NCBI GenBank assembly: GCA_017508285.1
Contig: JAFVZG010000009.1
Span: 1 to 51,202 of the forward strand
From: Lentisphaeria bacterium
GTDB taxonomy: Bacteria; Verrucomicrobiota; Lentisphaeria; Victivallales; Victivallaceae
Direction: 5' to 3'
DNA: 51,202 nt
Under the pieces are notes generated by a model that was not told where the DNA came from, did no database searches, and saw only the letters and a program-made list of their open reading frames with translations. Below, piece by piece: positions 12,608-26,480 of the stretch (position 1 is its first letter; each line of letters opens with the position of its first letter). Position numbers and translations under genes: made by a program.

Positions 12608-14773
12608 TCAGGTTCCTGAATCAAATTTGTAACGGTCGGCTTGGGAGATGATCCCCATTGCCAGGTAATCATCAAGACAGCGTGCCATAGTCTGCATGCC
12701 TTCTTTTGACGAACTTTCGATAGTTGACATCAACTGGTGGGTCTTGTTGTCGCGGATAAGGGCTCTTACTGCCATTGATCCGGTCATGATCTCATACGCG
12801 GCGATCCGTTTATCCGGTATATCCTGCCTTGGAATGAGCCGCTGGGAAACAACTGCCAGCAGACTGGCTGCAAATTGCTGGCGCACCTGATTTTGCTGTC
12901 CGGCGGGGAATACGTCGATCAGGCGTTCCACGGTCTGGCAGACATTGTTGGCGTGCAATGTTCCCAATACAAGGTGCCCGGTTTCTGCCGCAGAAAGAGC
13001 AGCCTGAATAGTTTCCAGATCCCGCAGCTCACCGACCAGAATAATATCCGGAGCCTGACGCATCGCACTGCGCAGACCGGACGTGAAGTTGAGGGTATCT
13101 GTGCCGATTTCCCGCTGTTCGATGACACAGACATCGTGTTCGTAAACATATTCGATAGGATCTTCGATCGTGATGATGTGACGCGGGAAGCGGTGATTGA
13201 CCTGATCGATCAAACTTGCCAGAGTAGTTGATTTACCGGAACCTGTCGGACCGGTAACCAGAATAAGCCCTTGTTTTTTCTGCATCAATTCACTTAACAC
13301 CGGCGGAACTCCGATCGTTTCGGGAGTCGGGATATTCTGGGATATCAAGCGTCCGACGAGAGCAAGATTGCCGCGTTGGAAGAAGGTATTCAAACGGAAT
13401 CGGCGATTGTTATCTTCTCCGAGTTTTACTGAAACCGCCAGGTCGAGTTCCCGTTTTTCTTCAAGAATGATACGCTGACTGCGGTTGAGCAGACTATAAA
13501 CCAGTCTCTGCACATCTGCTCCGCTCAATGGCGGCAGATCCAAAGGCGCAAAATCTCCATTTATATGCAACAACGGCGGAGTGCCTACTGTGATCAGCAG
13601 GTCGCTTGCACCGGATTTTACCGCTGCTTTGAAGAGGTCGCGCATATCGATTTGATTCAACCCGGATGAATCTCCGGCGTAAACTGCTTTTTCTTCATTA
13701 TTGGCGGTACTCATGCCGCGCTGCATCAGGCGCAATTCATCCGGATTATCTGATGCTGACAATGCATCATCCAGAGAGATAACATGCTGTCTGATGAAAT
13801 TTATCAGAGAGTTGTTGAATGTCAGCATCCCCTGATGAGCCCCCAGCTGCATCGTTTGCGGCAACTCGGAAAAACGCTGTTCTTTGATCTGTTTTTTGAC
13901 CACCCCGGTGCCGAGCAGGATATCCATCGCCGGAACCATCCCGTTCCCGTCAAGCCGGGGAACCAGCCGCTGACCGATGACTGCTTCCAATGCAGTAGCG
14001 ACACTGGATGCCACTGAATCCCGCTGTTGTTCGGGAAACATCTCAAGCATTCGTTCAATAGCCGATGAGGCATCAGATGTGTGCATGGTACAGATAATCA
14101 GGTGTCCGGTAAGTGCCGCTGAAAGTGCCGCCATGACGGTTTCCTGATCTCTGATCTCACCCAATACTATCACATCAGGGTTTTCCCGCAGGGCATTGCG
14201 CAACGCAGAGGCATAGCCGCCTTTGAGTTTGCCGATTTCCCGCTGGGATATGAGCGAGAGGTTGTCATGGTGAATGTACTCAATCGGGTCTTCCAGAGTG
14301 AGTATATGTTTGGATGCGGTATTGTTTATATGATTGATGATCGCGCTCATTGTCGTGGATTTACCGGAGCCGGTGGTACCGGTGACAATGATCATGCCGC
14401 GGGGGATCTCCGCGATTTTTGTCATGATTTCGACCGGGAGATGCAAAGTATTGAAGTCACACATAGAACCGACCCGTATCGGGCGGGCGACCAGACATGG
14501 GCCATTGATCGAATCATAAAAGTTGATACGGAAGCGGTTGCCGTTGTGAGCGAAGGCGCAATCCATACCACCGGTGGCAAGATACTCTTTTTCACCGGTT
14601 TCGCCGATACATTCCTTTCTGAATGTATCGATGGTTTCCGCTGATGTCGGGGGAATGTTATCTGCCGGAGTGATCGCCCCGGATATGCGGAAACTCGGTG
14701 GCTTGCCGCTGCCTATAAAAAGATCGGAGGCATTGAATTTGATCGCCGCATCAAAAAGTTTCCGGATACTCAT
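12608..14773 (-). CDS. Tandem PilT-PilT twitching-motility ATPase
   Basis: Type IV pilus retraction-type ATPase, but with two complete PilT units in one 721-residue chain. A standard PilT is about 350 residues. Unit 1 (about 1-345) has Walker A GTTGSGKST at about 132, EDPIEY at 161, Walker B VIVLGEIRD at 201 and the His box GHLIICTMHT at 223. Unit 2 (about 372-721) has Walker A GPTGSGKST at about 508, EDPIEYV at 537, Walker B IILVGELRD at 577 and GHLVLGTLHA at 599. All ATP-binding and catalytic motifs look intact in both. A 25-residue linker separates the units. ATG follows a GAGAGGG ribosome site. No other pilus gene is nearby. Confidence 0.92.
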   Translation of the reverse strand: MSIRKLFDAAIKFNASDLFIGSGKPPSFRISGAITPADNIPPTSAETIDTFRKECIGETGEKEYLATGGMDCAFAHNGNRFRINFYDSINGPCLVARPIRVGSMCDFNTLHLPVEIMTKIAEIPRGMIIVTGTTGSGKSTTMSAIINHINNTASKHILTLEDPIEYIHHDNLSLISQREIGKLKGGYASALRNALRENPDVIVLGEIRDQETVMAALSAALTGHLIICTMHTSDASSAIERMLEMFPEQQRDSVASSVATALEAVIGQRLVPRLDGNGMVPAMDILLGTGVVKKQIKEQRFSELPQTMQLGAHQGMLTFNNSLINFIRQHVISLDDALSASDNPDELRLMQRGMSTANNEEKAVYAGDSSGLNQIDMRDLFKAAVKSGASDLLITVGTPPLLHINGDFAPLDLPPLSGADVQRLVYSLLNRSQRIILEEKRELDLAVSVKLGEDNNRRFRLNTFFQRGNLALVGRLISQNIPTPETIGVPPVLSELMQKKQGLILVTGPTGSGKSTTLASLIDQVNHRFPRHIITIEDPIEYVYEHDVCVIEQREIGTDTLNFTSGLRSAMRQAPDIILVGELRDLETIQAALSAAETGHLVLGTLHANNVCQTVERLIDVFPAGQQNQVRQQFAASLLAVVSQRLIPRQDIPDKRIAAYEIMTGSMAVRALIRDNKTHQLMSTIESSSKEGMQTMARCLDDYLAMGIISQADRYKFDSGT

Positions 14774-16575: not shown

Positions 16576-16604
16576 TTGTAAAGAACTTTTTTCAGCATTA
16601 TATT
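16576..16604 (+). promoter_or_regulatory. Promoter of the acyl-CoA ligase/PFOR operon
   Basis: TTGTAA (16576-16581), 17 bp, TATATT (16599-16604). The transcript would have a leader of about 100 bases that contains the inverted repeat at 16656-16688. Confidence 0.65.
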
Positions 16605-16713: not shown

Positions 16714-18120
16714 ATGAAAAAAGCAGTAGTGACCGATGCGACATTGCGGATGTGTGATTACGCCGGTTGTACGCTGGGGTTCAAAGAAAAAATCGAGATA
16801 GTAAAGAATCTCGATCGACTTTGTATCGATGTTATCGAGACCGCTCCGCTTCTTAATGGCAAATCTGATGTTCTTTTTTTGCATACCATTGCACCGCTGG
16901 TTAAAAAGTGCGTTATCAGTTGTGCCGTACCTCTGGATGATGCGTTGGTCGATCTCAGTTGTCAGGCGATAAAAAAAGCGGTAAATCCGCGGTTGAATAT
17001 TATTGCTCCGGTTTCTACTGTGCAGATGGAGTACCATTGCCACCGGAAACCGGCGGCGGTTTTGGAAAAAATCGCCGCTTTGACTGCTAAAATCCGGCAG
17101 GAGGGGATCGAAACGGAAGTTTCTTTTGCCGATGCCACCAGAGCAGAACATGAGTTCCTGATTTCAGCTGTGAAATGTGCGGTGGATTCCGGTGCGCAGA
17201 TCATCACCCTCTGTGATTCTGCCGGAATGATGCTTCCCGGAGAAATGAGTGATTTCATCAACCGGGTCAAGGCAGATATCCCGGAATTGGATAATGTGCT
17301 TTTGTCGGTTGAGTGCGCTGATGAATTGCATATGGCTCCGGCTTGTGCTATTGCCTGCATCCGTTCCGGGGTCGGTCAGATAAAAACTGCGATAGGCGTA
17401 CACGGATTGCTGGGGCTGCGCGAATTTTCCGATGTTTTGAAAGCGAAAGGCGATGCCCTCGGGATAACCGCTTCTTTCAACCGGACAGCATGTTCCTCTA
17501 TAATCTCTGCGATAGAGAGTATCATCAGTGGTAAAATTCCGACTGCGCAGGAGAAAGTTTCTGCTGTTATTTCCGATGATGACTGGAAATTGACCTCTGC
17601 AGATGACATGGCTGCCATCGGAGAAGCTGTTAAAAAACTCGGTTATGAGTTGTCGGCGGAAGATCTGGGAAATGTGTATAACGAATTTCAGCGGATAGCT
17701 GTAAAAAAAGAGTTGGGAGCCAAGGATCTGGATGCTATTGTTGCAACAGTTGCCATGCAGGTTCCTCCAACTTATTCCTTGAAAAGTTTTGTTATCAACA
17801 GCGGCAATATCATTACCTCCATGGCTCATGTGGTTCTGTTGAAAAACGGCGAAGAGGTACAGGGATTCAGCATGGGAGACGGCCCCATTGATGCGGCATT
17901 TCTTTCCATCGAAAATATTGTCGGCCGTCATTTTGAATTGGATGATTTCCAGATCACTGCAGTTACCGAGGGAAGGGAGGCCGTGGGATCAGGTATCGTA
18001 CGGCTGCGTTCCAATGGGAAGCTGTACTCCGGCAAAGGAATATCCACCGATGTGATCGGAGCCAGTATCAGGGCATATGTCGATGCTCTCAATAAGATTT
18101 GTTACGAGGAGAATAATTGA
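16714..18120 (+). CDS. 2-isopropylmalate-synthase-like protein with altered active site
   Basis: 468-residue protein with the DRE-TIM barrel (about 1-275) and the LeuA dimer/regulatory domain (about 350-462) of 2-isopropylmalate or citramalate synthases. The regulatory domain is well preserved (GDGPIDAAF, AVTEGREAVG, DVIGASIRAY). The barrel aligns at IIAPVSTVQMEYHCHRK and GAQIITLCDSAGMMLPGE. However the N-terminal TLRDG motif reads TLRMC (residues 10-14), and the metal-binding HxHND segment reads ECADE (200-204), so both His ligands are missing. The GERAGN loop is also replaced (GVHGLLG). Activity is doubtful or changed. ATG 16714 is ten bases after AGAAAGG; a TTG nine bases earlier overlaps that site. 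First gene of the operon. Confidence 0.8.
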   Translation: MKKAVVTDATLRMCDYAGCTLGFKEKIEIVKNLDRLCIDVIETAPLLNGKSDVLFLHTIAPLVKKCVISCAVPLDDALVDLSCQAIKKAVNPRLNIIAPVSTVQMEYHCHRKPAAVLEKIAALTAKIRQEGIETEVSFADATRAEHEFLISAVKCAVDSGAQIITLCDSAGMMLPGEMSDFINRVKADIPELDNVLLSVECADELHMAPACAIACIRSGVGQIKTAIGVHGLLGLREFSDVLKAKGDALGITASFNRTACSSIISAIESIISGKIPTAQEKVSAVISDDDWKLTSADDMAAIGEAVKKLGYELSAEDLGNVYNEFQRIAVKKELGAKDLDAIVATVAMQVPPTYSLKSFVINSGNIITSMAHVVLLKNGEEVQGFSMGDGPIDAAFLSIENIVGRHFELDDFQITAVTEGREAVGSGIVRLRSNGKLYSGKGISTDVIGASIRAYVDALNKICYEENN

Positions 18121-18122
18121 TC

Positions 18123-20606
18123 ATGAAACTCTCCTTTTCTACCAACCGTTGGAAAAATTACAGTTTTGACCAATTTGTTGATATCGCTGATGAATATCGT
18201 TTTCAGGGTATCGAGATCCATGATATCAGAGCTGCCTTTGAGATATCCGAGCCGGGGAAGATCACTGCGGCTTACCGTCGTCTGATGGAGAAGCGTCTGG
18301 CGGTTTCCTGTGTTGATCTGACCGCCGATATCGTTGCAGACGGCGAAGCTGCCTTGAATGAACTGACAGTCGCTCTGGATGCCGCAAAACGCCTGCATTC
18401 GCCATGCGTGCGGGTCAAAACAGTTATTGAGAATGATAAGACTGATGATGCAGTAAAGGATTTTTTGAGTGCAGCATTGCCGGCGGCAGAAAAAAATTCT
18501 GTAACATTGCTGGTGGAGACCGTTGGGCCTTTCGCTGACACGGCGAGGTTGCGCGCACTTTTTGAAACCTTTGTAAGTGACAATCTTGCTGCATTGTGGG
18601 ATCTGCATTACCCGTTCCGGGTAAAGGGAGAGGCTCCGGAAGAGACGATCCGTAATCTTGGAGCGTATGTCCGTCATGTTCACATGAAAGACTCCGAAAG
18701 TGCTGATAAACTTATGCTTGTCGGAGAAGGTTCATTGCCTATCGAGTCGATCATGAATGCTTTGAAGTCAGTAAATTATGACGGTTTTATCTCTATTGAA
18801 TGGGATCCTGAATGGGATGAGGTGAGCGATATTGATATTATTTTTCCGCATTTTATAAGTTATATGAGCCGTTATGAGTTGGCGCGTATGCGTTCACCGC
18901 TTTATGACAATAATGCGCATACCGGTAAATATGTGTGGAAAAAAGAAACTTTGATCGAAAAGACCTTTTCTCAGGTGCTGGATACGATGGTGCGGGAATT
19001 TCCGGATCATCTGGCATTCAAATATACAACTTTGGATTACACCCGTACTTACTCTGAATTCCGTGATGATGTGGATCAATTTGCCCGTTCACTGATCGCT
19101 CTCGGTGTGAAACCGGGCAGTCATGTGGCAGTTTGGATGACAAATCTGCCGCAGTGGTATATCGCCTTCTGGGCGACAACCAAGATCGGAGCGGTTCTGG
19201 TTACAGTGAATACGGCGTACAAAATAGCCGAGGCAGAATATTTGCTCAAACAATCTGATACCCACACTCTTATTCTTGAAAAAGGATGGCGTGATTCCGA
19301 CTATGCCGGTATTATTGCCCAGCTTTGCCCGGAGATGGCGACTACCGCCTCCGGAGCGCAATTGCATGCCAAACGGTTGCCGTTCCTGCGTAATGTGATT
19401 ACCGTCGGATACCGGCAAAAAGGGGCAATCACCTGGGAAGATGCATTGTTGAGAGCAAAAAGTGTGCCGGCAGAGGAGTTGCGCCGCCGGGCCGATGCGG
19501 TGGATATTCACGATGTTTGTAATATGCAGTACACTTCCGGTACTACCGGGTTCCCGAAAGGCGTGATGCTCACCCATTACGGTGTTGTCAATAACGGTAA
19601 GTGCATCGGTGACCGAATGGATCTTTCCACCGCAGACCGGATGATGATCGAGGTGCCGATGTTCCACTGTTTCGGCATGGTTCTGGCAATGACAGCCAGC
19701 ATGACTCACGGAGCAACATTGCTGCCGCTGCCTTATTTTTCTGCAAAACCGGCTCTGGCTTGTATCAATCAGGAGAAAATCACCTGTTTCCACGGCGTAC
19801 CGACAATGTTCATTGCTCTGCTGGGACATCCGGATTTTCCGAAAACCGATTTTTCATGTATGCGTACCGGTATTATGGCAGGTTCTCCCTGTCCGATATC
19901 AGTTATGCAGGATGTTATTGACAAAATGCACATGACTGAGATCACCATCGTGTACGGTCAGACTGAAGCATCTCCCGGATGCACCATGTCGACCACCAGT
20001 GATCCGATCGAAGACCGGGTGGCCACCGTCGGCAGAGATCTGCCGGAAATTGAGAACCGTATCATTGATCCGGAAACCGGCAGAGATCTGCCGGATAACG
20101 AGATCGGGGAATTTGTCACACGCGGTTATCATGTGATGAAAGGGTATTACAAGATGCCGCGGGAAACTGCCGCGGCAATCGACAGTGAAGGCTGGCTTCA
20201 CACCGGAGACCTTGCATTGCGTACTCCGGAAGGGAATTATAAGATCACCGGCCGTCTGAAAGATATGATCATCCGCGGCGGCGAAAACATTTATCCGAAA
20301 GAGATCGAAGAATTTATCTATACGCACAACAAGGTTGAGGATGTACAGGTCATCGGTATTCCGGATAAGCAGCTGGGTGAAGAGATTCTGGCAGCGGTCA
20401 TCCTCAAACCCGGGGAAAACATGACTGCGGAGGAATTGCAGGACTATGTTCGTCAAAATATGGCAAAACACAAAGTTCCGCGTTATGTGGATTTTGTGGA
20501 AGCATTCCCGCAGAATGCCGCCGGAAAAATCTTGAAATATAAAATGCGCGAAGATGCTGCCAAACGCCTCAATATTGCCAAAGTTGACGGCATTGTCGCT
20601 GATTGA
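18123..20606 (+). CDS. Fusion: xylose-isomerase-like TIM barrel plus acyl-CoA synthetase
   Basis: One chain of about 827 residues. Residues 1-265 form a sugar-phosphate isomerase/epimerase-type barrel with a plausible metal site: Glu in LLVETVG, Asp in LWDLHYP, His in VRHVHMKD and Glu in SIEWDPEW. Residues about 280-825 form an AMP-forming acid-CoA ligase: YTSGTTGFPKG (about 469), VYGQTEASPG (about 610), HTGDLA (about 693), KDMIIRGGENIYPKE and the C-terminal NAAGKILKYKMRE with the catalytic Lys. The ligase is nearest to medium/long-chain fatty acyl-CoA synthetases. Start ATG 18123 follows GAGGAG by 11 bases; TTG 18117, overlapping the previous stop, is possible. Second gene of the operon, translationally close-coupled. 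Confidence 0.85.
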   Translation: MKLSFSTNRWKNYSFDQFVDIADEYRFQGIEIHDIRAAFEISEPGKITAAYRRLMEKRLAVSCVDLTADIVADGEAALNELTVALDAAKRLHSPCVRVKTVIENDKTDDAVKDFLSAALPAAEKNSVTLLVETVGPFADTARLRALFETFVSDNLAALWDLHYPFRVKGEAPEETIRNLGAYVRHVHMKDSESADKLMLVGEGSLPIESIMNALKSVNYDGFISIEWDPEWDEVSDIDIIFPHFISYMSRYELARMRSPLYDNNAHTGKYVWKKETLIEKTFSQVLDTMVREFPDHLAFKYTTLDYTRTYSEFRDDVDQFARSLIALGVKPGSHVAVWMTNLPQWYIAFWATTKIGAVLVTVNTAYKIAEAEYLLKQSDTHTLILEKGWRDSDYAGIIAQLCPEMATTASGAQLHAKRLPFLRNVITVGYRQKGAITWEDALLRAKSVPAEELRRRADAVDIHDVCNMQYTSGTTGFPKGVMLTHYGVVNNGKCIGDRMDLSTADRMMIEVPMFHCFGMVLAMTASMTHGATLLPLPYFSAKPALACINQEKITCFHGVPTMFIALLGHPDFPKTDFSCMRTGIMAGSPCPISVMQDVIDKMHMTEITIVYGQTEASPGCTMSTTSDPIEDRVATVGRDLPEIENRIIDPETGRDLPDNEIGEFVTRGYHVMKGYYKMPRETAAAIDSEGWLHTGDLALRTPEGNYKITGRLKDMIIRGGENIYPKEIEEFIYTHNKVEDVQVIGIPDKQLGEEILAAVILKPGENMTAEELQDYVRQNMAKHKVPRYVDFVEAFPQNAAGKILKYKMREDAAKRLNIAKVDGIVAD

Positions 20607-20629: not shown

Positions 20630-23600
20630 ATGAGTAAAGAAAAAAAATTCGTTACAATGGATGGTAATGAGGCGTGTGCTTATGCGGCATACGCTTTTAC
20701 CGAAGTTGCAGCAATTTACCCCATTACCCCGTCAAGTCCGATGGCAGGCAAAACCGATGCATGGGCGGCAAAAGGCAGAAAAAATATTTTCGGACAGAGT
20801 GTCACATTGGTTGAGATGGAGTCTGAAGCCGGTGCTGCGGGGGCTATCCACGGTTCATTGGAAACCGGTGCATTGTCTGCAACATTTACCTCATCGCAAG
20901 GGTTGCTGCTGATGATTCCTGTAATGCATCGCATTGCCGGAGAAAGATTGCCCGGAGTGCTTCATGTGGCATCAAGAACGGTTGGAACTCATGCACTTTC
21001 TATTTTCGGCGATCATTCAGATGTGATGAATTGCCGGCAAACCGGATTTGCCATGTTGAGTACAGCCAACTCTCAGGAGATCATGGATCTTGCTCCGGTG
21101 GCACATCTTGCCGCGGTCAAGGGGCGGATCCCGTTTTTACACTTTTTCGATGGTTTCCGCACATCTCACGAGATGAGCAAGGTGGAGGCTATCGATTATG
21201 AAGATCTCAGCAAACTGATGGATTATGAGGCTCTGGATTCATTCCGGGCTCAAGCCCTCAATCCGGAACATCCAAGATTGCGTGCCACTGTGCAGAATGG
21301 GGATATATTCTTCCAGGTGCGTGAAGCTAACAACCGCTTTTATGATGAATTGCCGGGGATCGTGCAGGAATACATGGATAAAATCTCTGCCTTGACCGGC
21401 AGGAATTATCATCTTTTTGATTATTATGGTTCTCCGGAAGCCGAAAATGTTATCATCGCCATGGGGTCGGTTTCCGGTGCGGTGAAAGAGACCGTTGATT
21501 ATCTTAATGACAAGGGTAAAAATGTCGGTTTTCTGCAAGTGAGATTGTACCGTCCGTTTGCGGCAGATGTTTTTCTTTCGGCACTTCCGGCAACGACCCG
21601 CCGGATCGCGGTTCTTGACCGCTGTAAAGAGATGGGCAGTGCCGGTGAGCCGCTTTATCAGGATGTCTGTACCGTTGTTGCCAATGCCGGCAGGAACATA
21701 AAGGTCATTGGCGGCCGTTACGGTTTATCCAGTAAAGATGTCGATCCTGCTCAAATTTGCGCAGTATACCGACATTTGGAAAAAGATGAACCATTCAGTA
21801 ATTTTACTATTGGCATCGAGGATGATGTCACTCATCTTTCTCTGCCGACCGAAGGAGCCCTTTATCCGGATGATGAGCATCAGGTTTGCTGCAAATTCTG
21901 GGGGCTTGGGTCTGATGGAACTGTCGGTGCCAATAAAAGTACGGTCGAAATCATCAACGCCCATACTGCAAAATTTGCCCAGGCATACTTCGAATATGAT
22001 GCAAAAAAATCTTTCGGCGTGACCAAATCACATTTGCGTTTCGGAGATTCCCCGATACGGGCATCATATTTCGTAAAGTCCGCTGATTTTATCGGGTGTC
22101 ATAATGAAACTTATATCCGCCAGTATGATGTTGCCGGAGAATTGAAAAAAGGCGGAACATTGCTGCTTAATACCTCTTTGGATCCTGAAGAATTGGAAAA
22201 ACTTATTCCAGCTGCTGTCAAACGGGAACTGGCGGAAAAAGAGGCAAATCTTTACACCATTGATGCTGTTTCAATTGCATCCTCGCTCGGCTTGGGAAAC
22301 CACTACAATCTGGTGCTGCAGTCGGCATTTTTCCATCTGGTAAATATTATTCCCGGTGAAGATGCTGATAATTACATGAAAGATCTGGCAAAGCGCACTT
22401 ATTTTTCCAAAGGTGATGAAGTTGTCGCCCGCAACCTGGCGGCGATCGATGCCGGAGCAAAAGCATTCAAAAAGGTGGAAATACCTGAAGCGTGGCGCAA
22501 TGCGGAAGATGAGTGCATGGATGATGCCCCGGAGCGTCCGGCGGTGGTTAAAAATATTGCCGATCCGATCAACCGTCAGAAAGGTGATGATCTGCCGGTC
22601 AGCGCATTCAAAGGGTATGAGGATGGCGTGATCGATATGGGGTTGACCGCGTATGAGAAGCGGGGAATCGCCGTTAATGTGCCGGTTTGGGATGCCTCAA
22701 AGTGTATTCAGTGCAACCGTTGTGCATTGGTCTGTCCTCATGCGGTGATTCGGCCGTATTTGCTCAATGAAGTTGAAAATGCTGCAAAACCGGCAGGATT
22801 CGATACCCTTGAAGTTCGCGGAAAATCTGGATTGTATTTTACTTTGCAGACCAGTTTTGCTGATTGCACCGGTTGCGGAGCGTGTGTGAATGCCTGTCTT
22901 GCCAAAGATAAGGCATTGAGTATGCATCCTTACCGTGAGGTCGGCAATCAGTTTGAGAAGTGGGAGTACGCTCAGAAATTAAGTGATAAAGGTGATGTCT
23001 TTGATGTCTGGTCGATCAAAGGCAGTCAGTTCCGGCAGCCGTTGCTGGAATTTTCGGCAGCATGTGCCGGTTGCGGTGAAACTCCGTATGCGAAATTGCT
23101 TACTCAACTTTTCGGAGATCACGTTTACTGGGCCAATGCCACCGGATGTTCTCAGGCGTGGGGATCTCCCATGCCGGGGATCCCGTATACCACTAACCGT
23201 GAGGGCAGGGGACCGGCGTGGAGCAACTCGCTTTTTGAAAACAATGCGGAATTTTCTCTCGGGATGGCGTTATCCGTAAAACAGCAGCGTGCCAGAGTCA
23301 AAATGATGGTGGCAGAATTGTTGAATATGGATATTCCGGATGCATTGCGTTCTGCCTGTAAAGATTTTATCGGCGGCTTTGACAGTATTGCCGAGTCGCG
23401 GAAAACTGCAGATATCCTCTGTGAAGAGTTGGCAAAGTGTGACTTGCCGGAAGCCGGGGAGATTCTCAAAAACCGGGATATGCTGGCTAAAAAAACATTC
23501 TGGATGTTCGGCGGCGATGGCTGGGCGTATGATATCGGCTTCGGCGGTCTTGATCATGTAGTTGCCAGCGGCGAAAATATCAATGTGCTGGTAGTTGATA

Positions 23601-24130
23601 CTGAAGTGTACAGTAATACCGGTGGTCAATCTTCTAAAGCCACACCGGTTGGAGCAGTCGCGCAATTTGCCAGTTCCGGCAAACCGAGTCCCAAAAAAGA
23701 TCTCGGTGCGATTTTTATGACTTACGGTAATGTGTATGTCGCTCAGGTGGCAATGGGGGCAGATCCGAATCAGTTGATAAAGGCGATCAAAGAAGCAGAA
23801 GAATTCAATGGCCCATCGGTTATTATCGCCTATACTCCGTGTTTGTCTCATGGATTAAAATGCGGCATGGGGTGCGCTCAGGAGGAGATGAAGCGGGCGG
23901 TGGAGGCTGGATATTGGATGCTTTACCGGTACAATCCGACCAAAGAAAAACCGTTTACGCTGGATTCTAAAGAGCCGTCTGCGTCTTACATGGATTTTCT
24001 TGCTGGAGAGACCCGTTATGCGGCATTGAAGCGTACATTCCCCGGAAATGCGGAAACTTTTTTCGCACAGGGTGAATCTCTGGCACAGAAAAAGTATCAA
24101 CATTATAAAAAGATGGAAGATAATCAGTAA
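20630..24130 (+). CDS. nifJ: Pyruvate:ferredoxin (flavodoxin) oxidoreductase
   Basis: Full-length homodimeric PFOR of 1166 residues, converting pyruvate and CoA to acetyl-CoA and CO2 with reduction of ferredoxin, or the reverse. Domain order is complete: N-terminal pyruvate-binding domain (AIYPITPSSPM), the CoA-binding region, a 2[4Fe-4S] ferredoxin domain with CIQCNRCALVCPH near 692 and CTGCGACVNAC near 745, and the TPP domain. There CAGCGETPY and GCSQAWGSP hold the proximal-cluster cysteines, and GDGWAYDIGFGG plus NTGGQSSKATP bind TPP-Mg. The C-terminal CGMGC supplies a last cysteine. Oxygen-sensitive enzyme typical of anaerobes. Third gene of the operon, between two acyl-CoA ligase genes, so its acyl-CoA product may feed them. 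Confidence 0.97.
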   Translation: MSKEKKFVTMDGNEACAYAAYAFTEVAAIYPITPSSPMAGKTDAWAAKGRKNIFGQSVTLVEMESEAGAAGAIHGSLETGALSATFTSSQGLLLMIPVMHRIAGERLPGVLHVASRTVGTHALSIFGDHSDVMNCRQTGFAMLSTANSQEIMDLAPVAHLAAVKGRIPFLHFFDGFRTSHEMSKVEAIDYEDLSKLMDYEALDSFRAQALNPEHPRLRATVQNGDIFFQVREANNRFYDELPGIVQEYMDKISALTGRNYHLFDYYGSPEAENVIIAMGSVSGAVKETVDYLNDKGKNVGFLQVRLYRPFAADVFLSALPATTRRIAVLDRCKEMGSAGEPLYQDVCTVVANAGRNIKVIGGRYGLSSKDVDPAQICAVYRHLEKDEPFSNFTIGIEDDVTHLSLPTEGALYPDDEHQVCCKFWGLGSDGTVGANKSTVEIINAHTAKFAQAYFEYDAKKSFGVTKSHLRFGDSPIRASYFVKSADFIGCHNETYIRQYDVAGELKKGGTLLLNTSLDPEELEKLIPAAVKRELAEKEANLYTIDAVSIASSLGLGNHYNLVLQSAFFHLVNIIPGEDADNYMKDLAKRTYFSKGDEVVARNLAAIDAGAKAFKKVEIPEAWRNAEDECMDDAPERPAVVKNIADPINRQKGDDLPVSAFKGYEDGVIDMGLTAYEKRGIAVNVPVWDASKCIQCNRCALVCPHAVIRPYLLNEVENAAKPAGFDTLEVRGKSGLYFTLQTSFADCTGCGACVNACLAKDKALSMHPYREVGNQFEKWEYAQKLSDKGDVFDVWSIKGSQFRQPLLEFSAACAGCGETPYAKLLTQLFGDHVYWANATGCSQAWGSPMPGIPYTTNREGRGPAWSNSLFENNAEFSLGMALSVKQQRARVKMMVAELLNMDIPDALRSACKDFIGGFDSIAESRKTADILCEELAKCDLPEAGEILKNRDMLAKKTFWMFGGDGWAYDIGFGGLDHVVASGENINVLVVDTEVYSNTGGQSSKATPVGAVAQFASSGKPSPKKDLGAIFMTYGNVYVAQVAMGADPNQLIKAIKEAEEFNGPSVIIAYTPCLSHGLKCGMGCAQEEMKRAVEAGYWMLYRYNPTKEKPFTLDSKEPSASYMDFLAGETRYAALKRTFPGNAETFFAQGESLAQKKYQHYKKMEDNQ

Positions 24131-24164: not shown

Positions 24165-26480
24165 ATGGCTGAAAAACAGGAGAATGTGCCGTCCAATGTA
24201 TTTGGCGGCAGTGATGTGGCAGAACAACTTAAACTCACCGGAAAGCGAATTAGCGAGGCCCGCAAGGCTCTCGGCATCAGCATTCGTGAGATGGCTATTC
24301 TGCACAACATTACTGAGTCGGATTATCTTCTGCATGAAGATGGTAAAGTCGACAGTTCGTTTTCCTTTCTGCTTAAGACCGCCGAGCGTTTCGGCATGGA
24401 TATCAATGCACTGATAACCGGAGAATCTCCCCGTCTGAGTTTTTACACTCTGACTCGCAAGGTTTCCGGTCAAAAGGTGGAACGGCGTCCTGATTTCGAA
24501 TATTTCCATCAGGCAGCTCAGATGAAAAACCGTATGGCAGAACCTTTTGTGGTGCGTGCTCCTTTTATTGGAGATGATGCGCCGGTTCATCTTTCAACTC
24601 ACGCCGGTCAGGAATTTGATTATGTTTTAAGCGGTAAGCTGAAAGTTCAATTGGAAGATAAAGTAGAGATACTTGAGGCAGGTGACAGTGTCTATTACGA
24701 CAGCCGTCACCCTCATGGTATGGTTGCGGTCGGTGGTGAAGATTGCTCGTTCCTTGCGGTGGTGATGAAATCCGGGGATTCGACATTGCCGGAAACGGTT
24801 CATGTGGAAAGTGCCGATCATGTCGTTGACAAGAGTGATTTGATCTATCACCGTTTCATGGATGAGACTATTGATGAAAACGGTTTGTTGACTGCGGTAA
24901 AATTCAATATCCCGGAGAACTTCAACTTTGCCTACGATGTGTTGGATGAATTGGCAAAGAAATATCCGGAAGGCAGAGCAATGCGTTATGTTTCTGCCGA
25001 TCAGAGCGTGGTTCGGGATTTTACCTACCGGGAAATTTCCGAATTGTCCCAGCAGGCGGCAAATTATTTTGTTTCGCTCGGCATCAAAAAAGGCGACCGG
25101 GTATTGTTGATTTTGAAGCGTCACTACCAGTATTGGTATGTGATAAATGCATTGCATCGTATCGGCGCAGTGGCGATACCGGCTCCGAATCAGTTGCTGG
25201 CTAAAGATATCGAATACCGGCTGCAGAGTGCCAATGTGCGGATGGTCGTGACGACTTCTGAAAAAGCCGTAACGGATTCGATGGATGAGGCATGCCGCTC
25301 CTACAAAGGGGTCGAATTCAAACTTTCCGTTAATGGCAAAGTTGACGGATGGCTGGATTTCGATGAGGCAGTCGGCCGATTCAGTAAAGAGTTTCCCCGT
25401 CCTGCAGATCACAAAGTTTCCGATCCGATGCTGATGTTCTTTTCCAGCGGCACATCCGGTTATCCGAAAATGGTTCTGCATGATCATGCTTATCCTCTCG
25501 GTCATATTCTGACTGCCCGCTGGTGGCTGAATGTACAGCCCGGACAACTGCATTTTACGATCAGTGATACCGGATGGGGCAAATCAGCATGGGGCAAACA
25601 CTACGGACAATGGTTGTGTGAAGCTCAGGTTTTTGTATTTGACTTTGACCGTTTCCATGCGGATGAAATATTGCCGATGTTCAAGAAGCATAATATTTCC
25701 ACATTCTGTGCGCCGCCGACGATGTACCGTTTCTTCATCAAAGAAGATTTGTCAAAATATGATTTTTCCACATTGAAGTACGCTGCAACTGCTGGCGAAG
25801 CTCTCAATCCGGAAGTATTTTATCAATTTTACAATGTTACCGGCTTGAAGATCATGGAGGCTTTCGGACAGACGGAAACCACCATGTCGCTGGGAAATTT
25901 GGTCGGCACGATCCCTCAGCCGGGTTCGATGGGCAGACCAAGTCCCCAGTATCCGATCGTACTGCTTGATGCGGATTGCAATCCGGTTGCTGCCGGTGAA
26001 ACCGGAGAAATTTGCATCAAAGCATCAAAAGTCGGTGAGATCCCCGGACTTTTCTGCGGATATAACAATGATCCGGAACGCACTGCCGAGGCGTGGCACG
26101 ATGGTTTTTACCATACCGGCGATGTGGCATGGTGCGATGAAAACGGTTATTACTGGTATGTCGGCAGAAGTGATGATGTTATCAAAACTTCCGGTTATCG
26201 CATCGGGCCTTTTGAGGTCGAGAGCGTGATAATGGAGTTGCCTTATGTTCTTGAGTGCGCGGTTACCGGTGCTCCGGATCCGGTGCGCGGTCAGGTCATT
26301 AAAGCATGGATCATGCTGACCAAAGACACGGTTCCCGGTGATGAACTCAAGAAAGAAATCCAGGATTATGTCAAAGCGCATACCGCGCCGTACAAATATC
26401 CCCGTTTGATCGAGTTCGTTGACAGCCTTCCAAAGACTACCAGCGGTAAGATCCGCCGGACGGAATTGCGGGATAAATAA
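24165..26480 (+). CDS. XRE-cupin regulator fused to acyl-CoA synthetase
   Basis: One chain of about 771 residues. Residues 22-85 are an XRE-type helix-turn-helix (GKRISEARKALGISIREMA). Residues 130-200 are a cupin sensor domain (HAGQEFDYVLSGKL, then GDSVYYDSRHPHGM). Residues about 225-771 are an AMP-forming acyl-CoA synthetase of the acetyl/benzoate/medium-chain type: FFSSGTSGYPKMV, EAFGQTETT, HTGDVAW, YVGRSDDVIKTSGYRIGP and the Lys in PKTTSGKIRR. I chose ATG 24165 because AAGGA lies eight bases before it; the longer open frame upstream lies within the PFOR gene. Last gene of the operon, followed by a terminator. It may both make an acyl-CoA and sense it. Confidence 0.87.
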   Translation: MAEKQENVPSNVFGGSDVAEQLKLTGKRISEARKALGISIREMAILHNITESDYLLHEDGKVDSSFSFLLKTAERFGMDINALITGESPRLSFYTLTRKVSGQKVERRPDFEYFHQAAQMKNRMAEPFVVRAPFIGDDAPVHLSTHAGQEFDYVLSGKLKVQLEDKVEILEAGDSVYYDSRHPHGMVAVGGEDCSFLAVVMKSGDSTLPETVHVESADHVVDKSDLIYHRFMDETIDENGLLTAVKFNIPENFNFAYDVLDELAKKYPEGRAMRYVSADQSVVRDFTYREISELSQQAANYFVSLGIKKGDRVLLILKRHYQYWYVINALHRIGAVAIPAPNQLLAKDIEYRLQSANVRMVVTTSEKAVTDSMDEACRSYKGVEFKLSVNGKVDGWLDFDEAVGRFSKEFPRPADHKVSDPMLMFFSSGTSGYPKMVLHDHAYPLGHILTARWWLNVQPGQLHFTISDTGWGKSAWGKHYGQWLCEAQVFVFDFDRFHADEILPMFKKHNISTFCAPPTMYRFFIKEDLSKYDFSTLKYAATAGEALNPEVFYQFYNVTGLKIMEAFGQTETTMSLGNLVGTIPQPGSMGRPSPQYPIVLLDADCNPVAAGETGEICIKASKVGEIPGLFCGYNNDPERTAEAWHDGFYHTGDVAWCDENGYYWYVGRSDDVIKTSGYRIGPFEVESVIMELPYVLECAVTGAPDPVRGQVIKAWIMLTKDTVPGDELKKEIQDYVKAHTAPYKYPRLIEFVDSLPKTTSGKIRRTELRDK

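Follow-up and report, generated by a model that had tools for sequence, protein, structure and literature searches.

LEUAL, a LeuA-derived pseudoenzyme encoded next to an acyl-CoA ligase, as a candidate leucine sensor in gut Lentisphaerota and Bacillota

We analyzed a stretch of 51,202 nucleotides (the window) from a Lentisphaeria bacterium whose genome assembly is 71% complete. The gene in focus, here called LEUAL, lies on the forward strand together with a promoter-like block and three downstream genes:

16576 to 16604, + strand: candidate sigma70-like promoter (TTGTAA at 16576-16581, 17-base spacer, TATATT at 16599-16604), 110 bases before the ATG
16714 to 18120, + strand: LEUAL, a LeuA-derived pseudoenzyme of 468 amino acids (PF00682 and PF08502; LeuA fold, catalytic residues lost in 84/84 relatives)
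18123 to 20606, + strand: partner gene, a fusion of a xylose-isomerase-like TIM barrel (residues 1-269) and an AMP-forming acyl-CoA ligase (PF01261, PF00501, PF13193)
20630 to 24130, + strand: operon-specific pyruvate:ferredoxin oxidoreductase (PFOR) paralogue, a candidate carboxylating 2-oxoacid:ferredoxin oxidoreductase (TIGR02176, 1705 bits)
24165 to 26480, + strand: HTH-cupin-acyl-CoA ligase fusion (HTH_19 just under its cut-off, Cupin_2, AMP-binding)

The LEUAL reading frame starts with ATG and translates into 468 residues. The sigma70-like block in front of it is invariant or near-invariant across 10 orthologous loci and thus presumably acts as a promoter; the upstream alignment contained only this promoter-like block, and an Rfam search of the window for riboswitches and T-boxes found nothing that reached the gathering score. 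The HTH-cupin ligase starts at 24165 (or 24159) and not at 24048, and no aminotransferase gene was found beside the ligases and the PFOR of the window. Elsewhere in the window, a 721-aa open reading frame on the reverse strand (12608-14773), known by its translation only, reads as a single chain with a pair of PilT-like ATPase modules (GTTGSGKST and GPTGSGKST).

LEUAL matches the HMGL-like profile PF00682 at 106 bits, but it reaches only 240 bits with the LeuA model TIGR00973, for which the cut-off is 598.7, and it also stays under the cut-off of every other LeuA model. Its AlphaFold model (mean pLDDT 75.5) had LeuA and relatives of LeuA as best matches, and the top structure matches included LeuA of Mycobacterium tuberculosis (1sr9/3fig, with 3fig being leucine-bound). 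The original prediction, which had described a LeuA-like protein, had proposed a superposition on isopropylmalate synthase as a check, and the LEUAL barrel indeed overlaid on 3ewb, the 2-isopropylmalate synthase domain from Listeria, with a TM-score of 0.87 by target length and 2.1 A, in agreement with a LeuA fold. As three defining features of 2-isopropylmalate synthase were tested and found to be missing, the sequence places LEUAL outside this enzyme family, but its descent from LeuA is apparent.

The regions of LEUAL that are relevant for this assignment are the following:

16741 to 16755, + strand: TLRMC (residues 10-14) where LeuA has TLRDG, without the metal Asp (Asp in 1% of 84 relatives versus 12/12 LeuA controls)
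17311 to 17325, + strand: ECADE (residues 200-204) where LeuA has HxHND, with neither metal His present (each His in 1% of 84 relatives versus 12/12 controls)
17395 to 17415, + strand: GVHGLLG where LeuA has the GERAGN metal loop (GER deleted in 84/84, Asn in 4%)
17548 to 17568, + strand: deletion site of the LeuA NAFAHESGIHQDG catalytic-His segment, at about residues 279-285 by linker-region alignment
17716 to 18099, + strand: LeuA allosteric (dimerisation) domain, residues 335-462 (PF08502, 104 bits)
17875 to 17895, + strand: conserved GDGPIDA motif inside the allosteric domain

For the conservation analyses, we used a set of 84 non-redundant LEUAL members from fetched loci, which came from Lentisphaerota and Bacillota and had the active-site losses in common, together with 12 LeuA controls. 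The individual metal, catalytic, and substrate roles were assigned after LeuA structures. The divalent-metal site, consisting of the Asp of TLRDG, the HxH, and the Asn of GERAGN, is entirely missing from the LEUAL of the window, and all three motif changes that had been predicted, TLRMC, ECADE, and the altered GERAGN loop, were found at these positions. The losses go further than the prediction had recognized: the Glu preceding DATR is replaced by Ala139 (the catalytic Glu is kept in 6% of the 84 orthologues), the substrate-site His is replaced by Gln104 (kept in 0%), and the NAFAHESGIHQDG catalytic-His segment, which reads HESGIHQDG in LeuA, is deleted in 84/84 orthologues. All tested active-site features (Asp, Glu, His, Asn, GER, and NAFAHESGIHQDG) were present in 12/12 LeuA controls. 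By sequence, the catalytic machinery of the LeuA type is lost throughout the family.

It had also been considered that LEUAL works by a different chemistry, in which Glu200 and Asp203 would be the ligands. This part of the prediction did not hold, because only 33/84 orthologues have Glu200 and only 24/84 have both residues, so that the ECADE pattern is poorly conserved; position 200 is a Ser in L049 and an Ala in L050. We therefore rejected these two residues as new metal ligands. A replacement His pair at the metal site, which would have spoken against the predicted loss, was not found among the 84 orthologues, in which His206 occurs in 34/84. Chance, an assembly error, or a pseudogene were rejected as explanations as well, as 84 intact non-redundant orthologues have the same losses.

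The regulatory domain, in contrast to the catalytic site, is conserved. PF08502 (LeuA_dimer) matches LEUAL at 104 bits with a cut-off of 24.9, and the nine key residues Gly388, Gly390, Pro391, Gly420, Gly440, Gly442, Thr445, Asp446, and Asn460 are each kept in 99-100% of the 84 orthologues, in agreement with the prediction of a well-preserved dimer domain. A phmmer search with the regulatory domain alone matched no solved structure. The relationship to the LeuA family, together with the T-boxes described below, points to leucine as the probable ligand.

Directly downstream of LEUAL, the TIM-barrel/ligase fusion was found in 82/84 loci, and the other two loci lie at contig ends. The two genes often overlap by 4 bases or are separated by a gap of a few bases, and among 149 relatives the fused ligase is present in exactly the 29 genomes that have LEUAL, which establishes a fixed gene pair; three more of the 149 match the ligase domain alone, with 48-50% identity. 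The ligase motifs YTSGTTG, YGQTE, and GRLKD do not vary, and neither does the AGK lysine, so the partner ligase is probably active. Among acyl-CoA ligase models it matches PRK12583 best, below the cut-off; MbcS is the best NCBIfam match of the HTH-cupin ligase, also below its cut-off. The fused TIM barrel (18123-18929) is much less conserved than the ligase (55% versus 80%), and its metal-type residues are kept in Lentisphaeria but missing from many Bacillota. Like the barrel of LEUAL, it may be in decay, which would give the system two such barrels.

The PFOR of the operon is 66% identical to the operon PFORs of Bacillota and about 48% identical to housekeeping PFORs of related Lentisphaeria, and it forms a separate lineage that is common to both phyla. 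Within the genus of the window, two PFOR copies are found in most LEUAL-positive genomes and at most one in LEUAL-negative genomes. A total of 126 columns are fixed differently between operon and housekeeping PFORs, including a change from GCSSI to GCSQA. We take the GCSSI segment to lie beside the active site of the Desulfovibrio africanus PFOR, with its Ile lining the pyruvate pocket, and the exchange may therefore enlarge this pocket. The pyruvate-binding Arg is kept, and the operon PFOR could still use pyruvate.

The nearest relatives of LEUAL are found in gut metagenome-assembled genomes of Lentisphaeria/Victivallales. LEUAL is present in 18/34 genomes of the genus (including the genome of the window) and in 11 genomes from another family of the same order. 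It was further found in one Ruminococcaceae and one Erysipelotrichaceae record, and in the corresponding orders it occurs in about 51/245 and 6/196 genomes, respectively. A maximum-likelihood tree was calculated with 42 LEUAL, 12 LeuA, and 3 other rows. All LEUAL rows were on one side of a single branch with 100/100 support in this tree, whose root was not tested, and the catalytic loss is therefore most simply regarded as ancestral to the family. As the Lentisphaerota rows nest among the Bacillota rows in this same tree, and as the operon PFOR lineage is shared, we suggest that the LEUAL module may have moved between the phyla.

In Bacillota, T-box leaders are found directly upstream of LEUAL. 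T-box leaders activate their genes when the matching tRNA lacks its amino acid, which for leucine T-boxes means leucine shortage, and the specificity of a T-box is accepted as an indication of what the gene does (PMC2494555). The specifier was taken to be the triplet that precedes the lower Stem I helix by one base; in L070, whose GUCUCA context is the same, CUC was assigned by eye. All 19 T-boxes that were read upstream of LEUAL specify leucine, with CUC in 17 and CUG in two of them (L059 and L104). Five of the T-boxes used score 77-92 bits, compared with the Rfam gathering score of 93, with E-values of at most 1e-16 in the stretch searched. T-boxes were not found for Lentisphaeria, and leucine-responsive expression is thus limited to the Bacillota evidence.

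The Bacillota clusters also contain HTH-cupin ligases, which occur there in tandem and have Ile and Val T-boxes of their own (L088, L097, L103, L104, and L107). An isoleucine T-box (AUC) precedes the first copy in 5/5 cases (L088, L097, L103, L104, and L107), and a valine T-box (GUC or GUA) precedes the second copy in 3/3 cases (L097, L103, and L107). These proteins may be ligases for 2-methylbutyrate and isobutyrate that regulate themselves. Beside the ligases, several clusters hold VorB, VorA, and VorC together with the branched-chain aminotransferase IlvE, so that all three steps, CoA activation, ferredoxin-dependent carboxylation, and transamination, are represented within a cluster; the VorB is a clear family member (540 bits, cut-off 399). 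Two further genes recur in these regions, namely an amidohydrolase (PF04909) of about 270 aa beside the LEUAL-ligase pair (L098 12903-13712, L090, L094, L095, L097, L099, L101, and L107), and, located between the HTH-cupin ligase genes and VorB, an ATPase of the CbiA/ParA type with about 220 aa (L098 4359-5033, L088, L089, L090, L094, L096, L103, L104, and L050).

The distribution of LEUAL was compared with that of LeuC, using TIGR02086 as probe, for which 141/245 Bacillota genomes were over the cut-off. LeuC was found in 2/51 LEUAL-positive versus 139/194 LEUAL-negative Bacillota (p = 8e-20; counting a third possible carrier, 3/51 versus 138/194, p = 3e-18), and in the genus a strong LeuC match (at least 414 bits) was found in 16/16 LEUAL-negative versus 1/18 LEUAL-positive genomes (p = 1e-5 with 5/18 LEUAL-positive genomes counted as LeuC carriers); these p-values are too small, as the tallies treat related genomes as independent, but the pattern recurs in two phyla. 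Because bacterial-type LeuC falls under the TIGR02086 cut-off, as aconitases do, LEUAL-positive genomes with two matches below the cut-off were treated as possible LeuC carriers. An example is G015, which has a complete classical leuACDB operon with a bacterial-type LeuC below the cut-off. LeuC is retained by some LEUAL-positive genomes (G030, G015, probably G021, G372, G239). Apart from such exceptions, LEUAL-positive genomes strongly avoid LeuC. In the window's own genome, as covered by its incomplete assembly, no LeuC was detected.

IlvC was found in 0/9 of the tested g41 genomes and in 5/32 LEUAL-positive versus 10/10 LeuC-positive Bacillota. As 12/16 LEUAL-positive members of the genus of the window keep IlvC, probably leucine alone has moved to the carboxylation route in this genus.

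LEUAL likely acts most like a regulatory pseudoenzyme subunit: its catalytic residues are lost in 84 intact orthologues, and it has a fixed partner that is an intact enzyme (82/84 adjacent, co-occurrence 29/29). The predicted role as a sensor or subunit is hence strongly supported by the family-wide catalytic loss, the conserved regulatory domain, the fixed partner, and the leucine T-boxes. In the mechanism that we propose, LEUAL would form a complex with the downstream acyl-CoA ligase, and its regulatory domain would control the ligase as it formerly controlled LeuA, supplying leucine feedback. The substrate that the ligase converts to a CoA ester would be a branched acid of short chain length, most likely isovalerate, and a ferredoxin oxidoreductase (the operon PFOR in the window, VorBAC in many Bacillota) would reductively carboxylate this ester to 2-oxoisocaproate. 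A branched-chain aminotransferase would then turn 2-oxoisocaproate into leucine, instead of LeuABCD, and the HTH-cupin domains of the putative Ile and Val ligases may do there the regulatory job of LEUAL. The assignment to an isovalerate carboxylation pathway appears well supported, and strongly so for genomics alone. We consider it probable that LEUAL is a dead, leucine-sensing LeuA descendant that exerts feedback control on an isovaleryl-type CoA ligase in carboxylative leucine synthesis. With somewhat less confidence, we favor the wider view of a new family of LeuA-derived leucine sensors that inhibit isovaleryl-CoA ligase, within a complete gene system (with T-boxes in Bacillota) that forms Leu, Ile, and Val from branched acids and replaces the classical pathways in two gut phyla.

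As the sequence gives no substrate and the closest solved ligases are of fatty-acyl, feruloyl, and coumaroyl types, it could be argued that LEUAL is a leucine-sensing partner of a ligase for another branched, straight-chain, or aryl acid. The leucine T-boxes, the Ile and Val T-boxes on the sister ligases, the adjoining VorBAC and IlvE genes, and the avoidance of LeuC all indicate a leucine precursor, however, and we regard a different substrate as unlikely. That LEUAL is still an enzyme, which with Glu200/Asp203 as metal ligands or metal-free supplies an intermediate to the ligase, appears still more doubtful. The barrel does have conserved residues of its own (Asp8, Pro99, Ser101, Met105, Glu106, Tyr107, Asp140, Arg143, Cys167, Asp168, and Lys224), but several of them are common to LeuA and may be structural, and neither the poorly conserved Glu200/Asp203 pair, nor a substitute His pair, nor the universally deleted catalytic-His segment leaves a basis for such chemistry.

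Such ferredoxin oxidoreductases and CoA ligases work in both directions and also take part in amino acid fermentation, and the operon could in principle run catabolically from leucine to isovalerate with LEUAL signaling a leucine surplus. This direction is very improbable, as LEUAL replaces LeuC instead of accompanying it and as the T-boxes switch on under leucine shortage (PMC2494555). Hardly any weight can be given to the idea that LEUAL joins a true LeuA in a mixed oligomer as its regulatory subunit: the dimerisation domain is common to both and a few genomes hold both proteins (G015 and G372), but most LEUAL-positive genomes are without LeuC, and the fixed partner gene encodes a ligase and not LeuA. 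Moreover, the sole other LeuA-family match in the 71% complete genome of the window fits citramalate synthase best. This protein, encoded at L109 6543-8081 on contig C77, has the Leptospira-type citramalate synthase CimA as best match, with 585 bits and thus below the cut-off of 950.

If LEUAL is the leucine sensor of a carboxylation route, as we favor, the clusters supply candidate genes for all three acid-activation steps and for the carboxylation step of a rumen-type pathway, together with a candidate sensor that evolved from the very enzyme that was replaced. We would predict that some LeuC-lacking gut species merely look leucine-auxotrophic and depend on the branched acids of their neighbors. 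In the open-access literature, to which the search was limited, we found neither genes named for the isovalerate carboxylation route, nor a leucine sensor for this route, nor a LeuA pseudoenzyme, which is weak evidence for novelty.

In comparison with known systems, LEUAL has the barrel fold, the regulatory domain, and the domain order of LeuA (TIGR00973; M. tuberculosis 1sr9/3fig; Listeria 3ewb), from which it differs by the loss of the metal and catalytic residues and of the catalytic-His segment, as is also reflected in the low profile score (240 bits versus the cut-off of 598.7). HisZ is a HisRS-like regulator of the short ATP phosphoribosyltransferase and, as a dead paralogue of a biosynthetic/aminoacylation enzyme, a similar case, since LEUAL would likewise sense an end product and thereby control a catalytic partner to which it is not related. 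LEUAL, whose regulatory function is a prediction, differs from HisZ in its ancestor (LeuA), its partner (an acyl-CoA ligase), and its pathway. Among the potential enzymes of the pathway, the VorB of the Bacillota clusters clearly belongs to the VorBAC-type 2-oxoisovalerate:ferredoxin oxidoreductases, whereas the HTH-cupin ligase is closest to the MbcS-type branched-chain acyl-CoA synthetases, yet under the cut-off. That rumen bacteria form isoleucine from 2-methylbutyrate and valine from isobutyrate has likewise been known since the 1960s. The carboxylation of isovalerate to leucine in rumen bacteria was described in the 1960s by Allison and co-workers, whose work is cited in PMC7356843. The reactions predicted for the LEUAL system are the same as in this rumen route, in which the acid is converted to the CoA ester, reductively carboxylated, and transaminated; the rumen route is known as physiology, whereas the LEUAL system is known from its genes.
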